Both the position numbers and the translations under genes were made by a program. From Pedobacter xixiisoli (lineage in GTDB: Bacteria > Bacteroidota > Bacteroidia > Sphingobacteriales > Sphingobacteriaceae): a stretch of DNA of 64,000 nucleotides. The stretch lies in contig NZ_OCMT01000002.1 of the NCBI RefSeq assembly GCF_900215335.1, forward strand, positions 62,001 to 126,000, read 5' to 3'. Positions 41,792 through 45,047 of the stretch are shown one piece after another; the first letter of the stretch is position 1; each line of letters opens with the position of its first letter. Under the pieces are notes generated by a model, which saw nothing but the letters and a program-made list of their open reading frames with translations, made no database searches and was not told where the DNA came from.

Positions 41792-41941
41792 ACACGAACA
41801 CCTAAATAGATACAGGAAGATTTATTTGAATATTTTATTTTAGATCTAACAAAACACGTAGCCGCTAAATATCCAGTATTCGGGAAATCCCTTTAAAAAT
41901 GAAACGTTTTGCTTAATTTTAAAAACAAAAGACGCTTTGAG

Positions 41942-43672
41942 ATGGATGCAAAGGACAAAAAAGATTTAGACCGTATATTGAGCTTCCTGTATAAGGGTAG
42001 CTCAAGTGCTTGGTACAATATATATACAAGCTTAAAACTTGACAAAGCCCGTGCTGATCACCTTTTCAAGATAGGCTTTGCCTTTGATTATTTACAGATC
42101 GAACACAAAGGTGCGTTAGAGTATCCCACCGACAACCACTACGTTGGAATTACTAGCGCTGGAATAAGATTTTTCTCCTTATCCAATTTCTCGGGAACCG
42201 AAAGAACCGAAGAAGAAAACAGCGAACCACAAAAATTCAACGTTTATATTGGTGGAAGCAATGGAGGTTTTAACCTGCTAGATGTGGATGCGCAGCAGCT
42301 CCAGATTGTGGTTGACGCATATTTGGAGGCAAAACCCGACTTCACGATTGTTGGACAGACATACCACCCCAAAAAATTCCATAGCCTGAAAATATTTGCC
42401 AACAACTCAGGTAAATCTACAAGGGAGCTTAAGGAAATAGGACTGACCAATGGTAGCAAACAAGGATTTAGAGGCCGGTTTTTTAACTCAGAAGATCTTG
42501 AAGAGTTTGGGGAAGATTTGACCTATTCGGTCATAGGGAATGCACAACCAGGATCGGGAAGAAAAAAAGGAAGCACATCAGTTCAGCTAGACATGGGCAC
42601 ACTGCCAGTTGCTAACCACTCAGAAGCCGAGACTGAGGCTAGCACCGATAATCCAATATTTATATCTTATAGCTGGGATTCTAGGAACCACGAAGAACAT
42701 GTTATCAGTTTTGCAAACGAACTTAGAAAGAACGGGTTCCATGTAGATATCGATAAAATAATTAGCCAGAGGAAAACTGCAACAAATTTTAATCAGATGA
42801 TGCATGAAGCTTTTCTCACCAGTGAATTTATCATTGTTGTCCTATCCAAAGGATATAAAGAAAAGGCGGATACTTTCAAAGGTGGGGTCGGAATTGAATA
42901 CCGTTTGATCCTTGGCGAAATCGACAGACATCCCAAGAAATACATTCTAGTTAGTTTTAATGGTCGGGATGCCGATATTATACCATTGGGATTAGACGGG
43001 AGAGACATCATTGACATCAACAGCAACGGCATGGAGCCCCTATTCCGGAAATTAACAGATCAACATGAGTTTGTACTTTCATCAGTGTCTAAACAGAAGC
43101 CTATTCTTACTCAAAGAGCTATTCTCCCATTTGAACAGTTCCAAAAGCAATTTTCCTCAAAACCAAGCTCAGAGGCTGAAAAATCCAGCTTGATTGCCGA
43201 GCGTATACAAAAGAAAAACAAGCTCAAAAAGGACTTCGCCAAATGGTTACATTACAAAAAAGAAGACGTTAAGAGACGTTTTAGGATGATTATCCATTCT
43301 TCTGAGAATGATACCTATCCTGAACAGCCAATGATCGAAAATGTTCCCCCTACTTGGTTTGGTGCGGAGATACACGGTGCAAGCCATCTGGGCATGGAAT
43401 TCTGCAATGAAAACACTCAGATTTATGTCAATGATAAAAATAAGTGGCGTTTAGAGCCAGCAAGTAATTTTGAGGAGATCAATGTTTCTGTCATTAAAAC
43501 AATCGTTTACGACGATATCATTGCTTGGGATATGGAAGGCGACGGCATATACAATTGCCCCCATTTTTATGTCAATTTTACTAATGGACTACCATGGAAA
43601 GACATTTATTATATCAATAGCAAAAAGCCTTATATGAGATTCGATACTTCGAACAGAACTGACCAAGAATGA
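41942..43672 (+). CDS. SEFIR-domain protein (possible defence protein)
   Basis: 576 aa from ATG 41942; the TTG at 41909 is less likely. N-terminal ~80 residues look like a winged-helix/HTH-like fold (LDRILSFLYKGSSSAWYNIYTSLKLDKARADHLFKIGFA). A linker is followed by a SEFIR domain (~245-390): NPIFISYSWDSRNHEEHVISFANELRKNGFHVDIDKI, EFIIVVLSKGYKEKADTFKGGVGIEYRLI, KKYILVSFNGRD. The C-terminal ~150 residues are unrecognised. SEFIR domains are TIR relatives used in bacterial antiphage proteins. The gene stands alone on plus between the sigma and FecR genes, which suggests insertion. Confidence 0.85.
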   Translation: MDAKDKKDLDRILSFLYKGSSSAWYNIYTSLKLDKARADHLFKIGFAFDYLQIEHKGALEYPTDNHYVGITSAGIRFFSLSNFSGTERTEEENSEPQKFNVYIGGSNGGFNLLDVDAQQLQIVVDAYLEAKPDFTIVGQTYHPKKFHSLKIFANNSGKSTRELKEIGLTNGSKQGFRGRFFNSEDLEEFGEDLTYSVIGNAQPGSGRKKGSTSVQLDMGTLPVANHSEAETEASTDNPIFISYSWDSRNHEEHVISFANELRKNGFHVDIDKIISQRKTATNFNQMMHEAFLTSEFIIVVLSKGYKEKADTFKGGVGIEYRLILGEIDRHPKKYILVSFNGRDADIIPLGLDGRDIIDINSNGMEPLFRKLTDQHEFVLSSVSKQKPILTQRAILPFEQFQKQFSSKPSSEAEKSSLIAERIQKKNKLKKDFAKWLHYKKEDVKRRFRMIIHSSENDTYPEQPMIENVPPTWFGAEIHGASHLGMEFCNENTQIYVNDKNKWRLEPASNFEEINVSVIKTIVYDDIIAWDMEGDGIYNCPHFYVNFTNGLPWKDIYYINSKKPYMRFDTSNRTDQE

Positions 43673-43698: not shown

Positions 43699-44274
43699 TC
43701 AAAAAAACATAAGGATAATAGATCTTCCAAGCTTGACTTTCAAAATTCTAAGCGCATTTGTAATTTGTTTGGAGACGTTATGTTCCGATGTTTCCAGTAC
43801 CGCCGCAATCTCCTTGTGAGATAGATGTTGCTTTCTTGAAAGCTCAAAAATATGCCTCATTTTTGAAGGTAAAGTCACTATCTGTCTTTCTATATAATCT
43901 GACATCTGCTTCTCCCTAATTAAAAAATCAGTGCTTTTTGAACTTTGCAGGCTATAGCTTGCCAAAAAATCAACATACCTATTTCTCACTTTTTGATGGG
44001 CAAAATAATCAAGCATCCTATTTCTCATTGATGTAAACATAAACGATGAAAAATTGCCCTCAACCGATAAGCTTTCCCTACGATGCCAAATACCAGTAAA
44101 CTGCTCTTGTACAAAATCCTTCGCCAACTCCTCATCCCGCAACTTCTTATAGGCAAACACAAACATCAATTGGAAATACCGATCATAGATTTCGGTATAC
44201 GCCGCAGCATCCCCTTCCCTTAAAAAGGCAATCAATTCATTATCCGAAAGGTTTTGATAAACAGGCATGCTCAT
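43699..44274 (-). CDS. ECF sigma factor of the SusC/FecR system
   Basis: 191 aa from ATG 44274 (ATG 44268 is the next choice). Region 2: AYTEIYDRYFQLMFVFAYKKLRDEELAKDFVQEQFTGIW, then NFSSFMFTSMRNRMLDYF. Region 4: LPSKMRHIFELSRKQHLSHKEIAAVLETSEHNVSKQITNALRIL. The longer frame to 44415 runs through a structured RNA leader and has no sigma similarity, so it is rejected. The start codon lies inside a 9-bp hairpin, so translation is probably controlled. Confidence 0.9.
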   Translation of the reverse strand: MSMPVYQNLSDNELIAFLREGDAAAYTEIYDRYFQLMFVFAYKKLRDEELAKDFVQEQFTGIWHRRESLSVEGNFSSFMFTSMRNRMLDYFAHQKVRNRYVDFLASYSLQSSKSTDFLIREKQMSDYIERQIVTLPSKMRHIFELSRKQHLSHKEIAAVLETSEHNVSKQITNALRILKVKLGRSIILMFF

Positions 44275-44292
44275 TATCTGGTTATAATGAGC
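44269..44292 (-). promoter_or_regulatory. hairpin sequestering the sigma start codon
   Basis: A perfect 9-bp stem GCTCATTAT / ATAATGAGC with a 6-nt loop. On the minus-strand mRNA the ATG at 44274 lies in its 3' arm and the second ATG (44268) directly at its base. A closed hairpin should hide the start from ribosomes. Confidence 0.7.
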
Positions 44293-44329
44293 CTCAAAAA
44301 ACAAAGGGAAACAGCAATTGTAAATACAA

Positions 44330-44433
44330 TAGGGCCGGTAACCCGCAAAGTCAAAATGTACCGTTGGCTCTGGTAAGCCACCTCTCCTTTCGAAGAGGTT
44401 TCCATACATTTGCATAAGCGAGCACCGGCCCTA
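44330..44433 (-). ncRNA. branched structured RNA in the sigma-gene leader
   Basis: Read as minus-strand RNA: closing stem UAGGGCCGGU / ACCGGCCCUA (10 bp); then CUCGC / GCGGG (5 bp with one G-U); then CAAAUGUA paired with UACAUUU-G (bulge); then a junction with CCUCUUC-GAAA-GGAGAGG (7 bp with one G-U, GNRA tetraloop) and UGGCU-UACCAG-AGCCA (5 bp). The two G-U pairs become C-A mismatches on plus and the GAAA loop exists only on minus, so the RNA is on minus. CCCTA upstream (44446-44442) can pair with the 5' arm of the closing stem, an alternative fold. I do not recognise a known family. Confidence 0.65.
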
Positions 44434-44534
44434 CAGTTATATAGGGTGCGGATACTCTACTTACACTCACATGGAAATTTACCAGATTTACGGTGTGAGG
44501 CTCGTAAGCAATCCTTACGTTTAGATAAGAATTA

Positions 44535-44567
44535 CAAATCTATTTATTTTTTTACTCTATTTGTCAA
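44535..44567 (-). promoter_or_regulatory. candidate promoter of the sigma gene
   Basis: TAGATTTG (44542-44535), an exact TAnnTTTG, with TTG (44567-44565) 22 nt upstream, slightly long. Transcription from here gives a leader of about 250 nt before ATG 44274. It also contains hairpins CGTAAG-CAATC-CTTACG (44502-44518 region) and CTCACA / TGTGAG. Confidence 0.5.
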
Positions 44568-44732
44568 TATAATACAACTCAATTTCTTCTCACCTGTGAG
44601 ACAACGAGTTATTCAAATATAAGTATTAACAGGTCAAAAAACAAACGATTTGTATTTTTAAAATTACGTATCGTATTTTTTAGTTTAAAAAAAGTTATTT
44701 CAACCCGACCTTAGGTGTACAGCATTACATAC

Positions 44733-45047
44733 ATGGGGAATTGGAAAAATAATGATTTTGAAATATCTACTGAATTAGCTTCTATTGCTTTGTTATTTGA
44801 AGCAAAAAAAGTTAAACGCATGTACGATATTGCTGGATTATTTCCCACAAAGATTTCTCGACTGCTAGGCATAAATTCAGATAGATATTCTGTAAAATTA
44901 TCTAATCCCGAGAAATTCTCTGTTTTCGAAATCTTAAAGCTCGCTTATATTCTAGGACTTGATCCTAATTTAATTCTAGATGTAATTCAGATTGAAACAG
45001 AAACTCTGGTAAGTAAAAAGATAAAGCAAAAATCTACCTCTGCATAA
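44733..45047 (+). CDS. small putative HTH protein
   Basis: 104 aa from ATG 44733 (MGNWKNNDFEIS). Helical, with MYDIAGLFPTKISRLLGINSDRYSVKLSNPEKFSVFEILKLAYILGLDPNLIL, which looks like an XRE-like fold (helix, turn, PTKISRLLG, and a terminal LGLDPNLIL helix). No close family recognised. An A/T-rich gap separates it from the sigma leader on the opposite strand. Confidence 0.5.
   Translation: MGNWKNNDFEISTELASIALLFEAKKVKRMYDIAGLFPTKISRLLGINSDRYSVKLSNPEKFSVFEILKLAYILGLDPNLILDVIQIETETLVSKKIKQKSTSA

Follow-up and report, generated by a model that had tools for sequence, protein, structure and literature searches.

A pseudoknotted leader of a Pedobacter sigma-factor gene, probably a previously undescribed RNA gene switch

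Cobalamin riboswitches join a pseudoknotted, kissing-loop core to a switching expression platform, a layout that is an analogue for the element described here, the leader of a sigma-factor gene in Pedobacter xixiisoli (assembly GCF_900215335.1, contig NZ_OCMT01000002.1, 62,001–126,000). This stretch of 64,000 nucleotides (nt) was analysed whole and is called the window; positions are numbered within it, and features lie on the minus strand unless marked (+). The leader occupies 44269–44542 (~250 nt). In the same class of bacteria, Flavobacterium psychrophilum is reported to have structured 5′ cis-regulatory RNAs without an Rfam family, 64 of them listed (PMC9723704), and the element resembles those leaders in being a structured 5′ region outside any Rfam family. 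Against 4227 Rfam models the window gave no match at gathering scores, and the interval 44200–44750 gave nothing convincing at expectation values (E) up to 10; an earlier note, made from the letters of this DNA, had described the leader and likewise recognised no family. A search of the open literature found no description of the element, and it may already have been seen as a leader without a name. Its own sequence and those of its relatives make a previously undescribed RNA gene switch the probable reading; on balance we regard the element as the leader at the 5′ end of the sigma mRNA, belonging to a new family of RNA switches that act in cis.

Homologues were collected by two routes. BLAST in related genomes returned ~20 copies of 72–82% identity, while a degenerate pattern scan of 84,980 species gave 75 stretches; requiring the complementary strand of the kissing loop (described below) and including the BLAST copies left 65 elements, found in Pedobacter, Mucilaginibacter, Sphingobacterium, Olivibacter, Daejeonella, Belliella, Algoriphagus, Litoribacter and Pontibacter. 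An alignment and a covariance model were built from 64 of them. Any copy found by the pattern scan must contain the core motif, and the conservation of those columns is in part a product of how the copies were selected; this bias does not touch the distant subfamilies or the model, though the model itself was built from pattern-scan copies. With the model, copies appear in 60 of the 145 genomes of the Pedobacter genus set, in 15 of 395 sampled genomes of the class and in 20 of 395 sampled genomes of the phylum, every match of the phylum sample falling in the window's own class, Bacteroidia. Model E-values are rough, and values near 1e-5 are not safe because weak minus-strand echoes of true copies appear; matches on the reverse strand over true copies were rejected as artefacts of the symmetric stems. 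Weak matches near 40 bits are real relatives where inspected, keeping the kissing pair (ACTGGTA/TACCAGT) and the pseudoknots PK2 and PK3 in different letters, and they lie mostly 80–116 nt from a divergent XRE-type gene. Distant blastn searches of plasmid and phage collections gave no copies, and two pattern matches in viral contigs, where the kissing partner is absent, were dismissed as chance.

The fold is more than chance: 64 homologues retain its pairs through compensatory changes. With the pseudoknots included, 88% of cells over 62 pairs are standard and 39 pairs change on both sides, giving a covariation score of 0.372; shuffles score 0.185 and slid structures no more than 0.122. Since kinship among sequences inflates covariation counts, columns were simulated independently along a FastTree tree. 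Under this null 16 of the 74 proposed pairs reach E ≤ 0.05 over the structure (six in P5, three in PK3, three in P3, two in the kissing loop and one each in P2 and P1b), as against 0–2 in the slid controls; covariation in homologues had been set beforehand as a test of the element, which it passed. When all 23,005 column pairs are scored, seven reach E ≤ 0.05, six of them inside the structure and the seventh adjoining the kissing loop. In the window, the 308-nt leader folds at −99.6 kcal/mol, compared with −71.0 ± 5.4 for dinucleotide shuffles (z −5.25; 0/100 as good).

The alignment also assigns the strand. Cells with G-U outnumber those with A-C by 335 to 79 in the helices of the main structure and by 50 to 11 in the P2 arm, and the fold therefore belongs to the minus-strand RNA; the G-U argument that the earlier note had made for this leader holds across the homologues. 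Inverted repeats in DNA, such as operators arrayed for a helix-turn-helix (HTH) protein or the terminus of a mobile element, could mimic RNA stems, and palindromes do lie near the promoter, the hairpin P0 overlaps the promoter box and several copies are close to mobile-element genes. This DNA-level explanation is nevertheless highly improbable in view of the four-to-one excess of G-U, of kissing and pseudoknot pairing that would be meaningless in duplex DNA, of the 11 unrelated HTH clusters that the same RNA accompanies, and of the single copy in the window's genome, where further copies are not above chance. A coding leader was rejected too: the upstream extension of the sigma frame is absent in homologues, which have indels and stem-compensating changes. 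The earlier note had held that a conserved coding frame in place of the stems would speak against an RNA, and the homologues contain no such frame.

At its 5′ end the leader has a TAnnTTTG promoter −7 box (TAGATTTG, 44535–44542) with TTG ~20 nt upstream. Exact TAnnTTTG occurs in the first bases of 34 of the 64 aligned copies, compared with 5.8% of 501 upstream control windows; it is the consensus of the Bacteroidota primary sigma factor according to PMC7366714. The box, like the closing stem, the GAAA-capped stem at 44399–44380 and the start hairpin, had been described earlier, and all of these parts are indeed present on the minus strand. The P0 hairpin (44508–44535; 44535–44526 with 44517–44508) begins at the last base of the box and shows two-sided changes at all 9 counted pairs, with 80% of cells paired and a helix sum exceeding each of 150 tree-based simulations.

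Next comes a compact core, demonstrated by the sequence comparison, in which the loop of P1 would bind three downstream strands. The P1 hairpin (44461–44507) consists of P1a (44507–44503 with 44465–44461), a 3-nt AGC bulge (44502–44500) and P1b (44499–44495 with 44470–44466), the latter with 97% of its cells paired and exchanges of C-G for U-A, its pair 44495-44470 reaching E 0.0024 under the tree null. Pseudoknot PK3 (44360–44494) joins ACCGT (44494–44490) to ACGGT (44364–44360), with two-sided changes at all 4 counted pairs; two of its pairs are among the five strongest covarying pairs, at a level unreached in 150 simulations. The kissing loop (44369–44486) pairs 8 bases of the P1 loop (TCTGGTAA, 44486–44479) with the P6 loop (TTACCAGA, 44376–44369). 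It is paired in every cell of all 64 sequences, its variable pairs reading G-C in 37 and A-U in 27, and U-A in 40 and C-G in 24, again a covariation unreached in 150 simulations. Because gaps misalign PK2 (44399–44477; TTTCCAT 44477–44471 with ATGGAAA 44405–44399), it was judged by partner permutation: the longest complementary run is 4.86 in own pairs and at most 3.64 in 2000 permutations. P5 (44380–44399; 8 bp, GAAA loop) has two-sided changes at 8 of 8 pairs, 6 of them significant against the tree null. P6 (44366–44379), whose loop is the kissing strand, is closed by GGC/GCC in some copies and GGT/ACC in others, and its covariation in the alignment is weak.

The core is joined to what would be a two-state element. 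The closing helix P3 (44329–44434; 44434–44418 with 44346–44329) comprises GTAGGGCCGGT/ACCGGCCCTAT (44434–44424 with 44339–44329) and an extension, CUCGC/GCGGG (44422–44418 with 44346–44342); 96% of its cells are paired, and 44427-44336, 44424-44339 and 44420-44344 covary (E 0.0008–0.013 over the structure). The alternative P2 arm (44421–44456) pairs AGTA-CC-CCCTAT (44456–44441) with GTAGGG-GG-TGCT (44434–44421) in 94.8% of cells, and its pair 44453-44424 covaries (E 0.0006 over the structure). Strand 44434–44421 is thus common to P2 and P3 (in the latter with 44342–44329 and neighbours), which makes the two helices mutually exclusive, and column 44424 covaries significantly over the structure with both 44453 and 44339. 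The exclusive fold proposed earlier, a possible pairing between CCCTAT (44446–44441) and the 5′ strand of the closing stem, is borne out in this way, both helices covarying. A short subfamily, made of flavobacterial and other relatives, has the same exchange in other letters (GCTCACG/CGTGGGC versus GGCGTGGGCTC/GAGTTCCACGCC). There P3 is often followed by 5–9 U, a run of at least 5 being present in most Bacteroidia members, while many main-subfamily copies have a weak U-tract past P3 (mean 7.4 T in 14). For the window, with a tail that is no more than U-rich, we make no claim of termination.

The start of the gene offers a second choice. A perfect 9-bp hairpin (GCTCATTAT/ATAATGAGC, 44269–44292; 44292–44284 with 44277–44269) holds the in-frame ATG at 44274–44272, so the sequestered start codon that had been described is there, and the hairpin is widely kept among copies; a second in-frame ATG of the sigma frame follows at 44268–44266. 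A GGCT-type anchor is present in 59 of 64 copies, usually 19–34 nt beyond P3, where the next gene starts (folding mean z −1.8), and the arms change in step (CTCATTAT/ATAATGAG, CTCATATT/AATATGAG, CTCGTTTT/AAAACGAG and others). One might propose an RNA thermometer, in which this hairpin melts with temperature and the rest is scaffolding; the AT-rich window hairpin and its retention in most copies agree with that, yet the conserved 8-bp kissing loop, PK2, PK3 and the P2/P3 exchange would be left unexplained, and we give the proposal very little weight.

The start hairpin is also connected to the core by a long-range complementarity (44289–44503), between GAGCCTC in the P1 strand and bulge (44503–44497) and GAGGCTC (44295–44289). 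Complementary runs between P1 bulge and tail average 5.46 nt, versus 3.52 in shuffled tails, and compensatory versions exist elsewhere (AAGCCTC/GAGGCTT, GAGCTTC/GAAGCTC, AGAACC/GGTTCT, GAATC/GATTC, GTCTC/GAGAC); in most groups the tails best match the P1 bulges of their own group. This contact, which competes with the start hairpin, is our principal ground for taking the element to act in cis. A trans-acting or stand-alone structured RNA, ending near P3 or after the start hairpin and lying by chance between HTH genes and varied others, is an unlikely alternative: it could account for the element's own promoter box, for the U-rich stretch past P3 (a true U-run in many short-subfamily relatives) and for the distance of more than 200 nt to the next annotated reading frame in some members. 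Such an RNA would not need the cis geometry apparent in the main subfamily, where the 5′ arm of the start-codon hairpin complements the P1 bulge, at a near-constant distance and with different genes behind it.

Mechanistically, a cis-acting switch would operate as follows. Transcription would begin at the TAnnTTTG box, facing the divergent HTH gene whose product probably controls initiation, and leader and gene would be transcribed as one unit. Strand 44434–44421 would pair back (P2) or forward (P3), and GGCUC (44292–44288) would either close the start hairpin or pair with the GAGCC strand of P1. With the start hairpin alone, translation would be low; once the core settles, the P1 bulge would capture GGCUC and free the start codon, the P2/P3 exchange deciding which state is reached. 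We prefer this direction, with the start hairpin as lock and capture by P1 as key, over the opposite one. In the flavobacterial relatives, P3 with its U-run could also terminate transcription.

Several observations weigh against this mechanism. AT-rich runs contaminate the counts of long-range matches in some groups, blurring groups B and C, and the long-range pairing cannot be fully separated from that within the start hairpin. One pair of the P2 arm alone covaries significantly, and nested folding of the window strongly favours P3 (−56.4 versus −14.1 kcal/mol for the P2 arm, the lengths being different). The U-tract past P3 in the window (UAUUGUAUUUACA) is weak; the 5′-most few bases may be untranscribed because P0 overlaps the promoter box; and some relatives, among them nine copies in one genome, have no divergent HTH gene.

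The gene behind the leader (43699–44274) encodes an extracytoplasmic function (ECF) sigma factor of 191 amino acids (aa) from the ATG at 44274, matching TIGR02985 at 127.8 bits (curated cut-off 126.4). Upstream, a divergent small gene (44715–45047, +; 110 aa, ~105 aa from its ATG) has no Pfam match by sequence and is assigned to the HTH class by predicted fold: its model (predicted local distance difference test 82.5) aligns best with HigA-type Cro/C1 HTH proteins, at middling scores (Z 7.3 for 3cec, 7.1 for 2eby). Among the copies, a divergent open reading frame of 69–157 aa lies within 330 nt upstream in 57 of 65, compared with 38 of 283 control positions, for which the range was narrower; 39 of these 57 match Pfam HTH_26, and the divergent gene is mostly a Cro/C1-type HTH. 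On the same strand, an open-reading-frame rule places a gene start within 330 nt of 57 of the 65 copies; it overlooks the window's sigma gene, since the frame of that gene continues without a stop into the leader.

The element is not sigma-specific. Downstream proteins are ECF sigma factors in 22 of 58 cases, DUF6166 in 6 and HEPN in 5, the rest being unassigned or short frames before SusC/D operons, and BLAST clustering gives 11 HTH groups and 19 downstream groups in many combinations, the sigma cargo occurring with six HTH groups. The earlier suggestion that the leader controls a sigma/FecR/SusC system fails as a general account, the same RNA preceding HEPN, DUF6166, SusC/D and other genes; even at this locus it is an inference at best, because a convergent bSEFIR gene parts FecR from sigma. 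That anti-phage defence gene (41909–43672, +; PADLOC E 2.3e-38) looks like an operon-splitting insertion, since sigma and FecR are adjacent in a relative (L007 of genome G044). The non-sigma copies, together with the kissing loop, the two pseudoknots, the long-range pairing to the start hairpin and the divergent HTH gene, go beyond the earlier note.

A broader and more tentative reading, which we find possible without favouring it, is that Bacteroidia contain modular RNA-gated cassettes, in which a constant pseudoknotted hub would read a general cellular signal and unlock the start codon by long-range pairing while regulators (many unrelated HTH proteins) and cargo (sigma, SusC/D, HEPN, sigma with a dead TnpB) are freely exchanged. 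Turnover of the cassette is shown by copies (L017/L105, L117/L209, L039 and L198) that are duplicated in tandem, have lost the interior from P2 to P3 but not the start hairpin, or are decayed. In genome G165, nine low-scoring copies (L191–L199) have a changed kissing pair (GTGGAAA/TTTCCAC) and a changed start motif; eight of them make up a uniform subgroup that lacks the divergent HTH gene, and several precede HEPN-like genes. Two very distant relatives (L178 and L182) retain AATCTGGTAAATTT and TTTACCAGA with all other stems different, and the genes downstream of them are of unknown function. The element would add a large, highly structured family of leader RNAs to a phylum in which RNA control of surface transport systems is little known, with an unusual arrangement in which the regulators on one side and the target genes on the other can be exchanged while the RNA core between them stays constant. 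Both switching contacts are base-precise, which makes tests with compensatory mutants straightforward; if several hundred sites use the element, knowing its signal would explain a regulatory layer of sigma factors and SusC/D transporters in Bacteroidia.

Among described systems, RNA-guided transcription factors derived from TnpB or of the dCas12f type invite comparison, some copies sharing an operon with sigma and TnpB-like genes. At L035 (6571–8485), L036 (7594–9523), L053, L225 and L226, an ECF-like sigma gene is followed by a TnpB/Cas12f-like gene of ~365 aa; the latter stops early and looks nuclease-dead, the usual RuvC aspartate motif being absent on visual inspection. A search of 42 genus genomes found this pair in 8, and the RNA element stands upstream at five such loci, one of them outside the genus; they are candidates for an RNA-guided transcription system. 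That the element itself is a guide RNA of such a protein is very doubtful. Its size and pseudoknots are generally like those of guide scaffolds, and it stands upstream of sigma and TnpB-like operons in G002, G010, G025, G027 and the distant G436. Against this, protein and profile searches found no TnpB-family match in the window's genome, for which the guide reading was rejected, nor in six of seven other element-bearing genomes; the sigma and TnpB operons of G003, G006, G036 and G007 have no detectable element, and the variable 3′ segments are alike in close relatives.

Returning to the cis-acting switch, its likenesses to other systems are partial. The divergent HTH product of the window has the same predicted fold as HigA/Cro/C1-type (XRE) autoregulators; no adjacent toxin gene was identified, and its regulation of the leader is putative. 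DUF805b RNA (RF02914) is likewise a cis-regulatory hairpin near a start codon, with a 35-nt model and no core. One distant relative of the element is followed after 21 nt by a DUF805b match of 47 bits (L180, 1712–1747, +), none being found beside other members or in the window; this suggests that DUF805b may form the portion of a larger leader nearest the start. With RNA thermometers the element has in common a start codon paired in a hairpin, in the window (44292–44269) and in most copies. Riboswitches with a loop-loop core are closest in layout. The element differs from them in having no Rfam riboswitch match, cargo that shares no metabolite and a divergent HTH gene, and it is not filed as a riboswitch; it shares with them the leader position, a compact core forming a conserved, structured, aptamer-like domain, mutually exclusive helices that resemble an expression platform, and a sequestered start.
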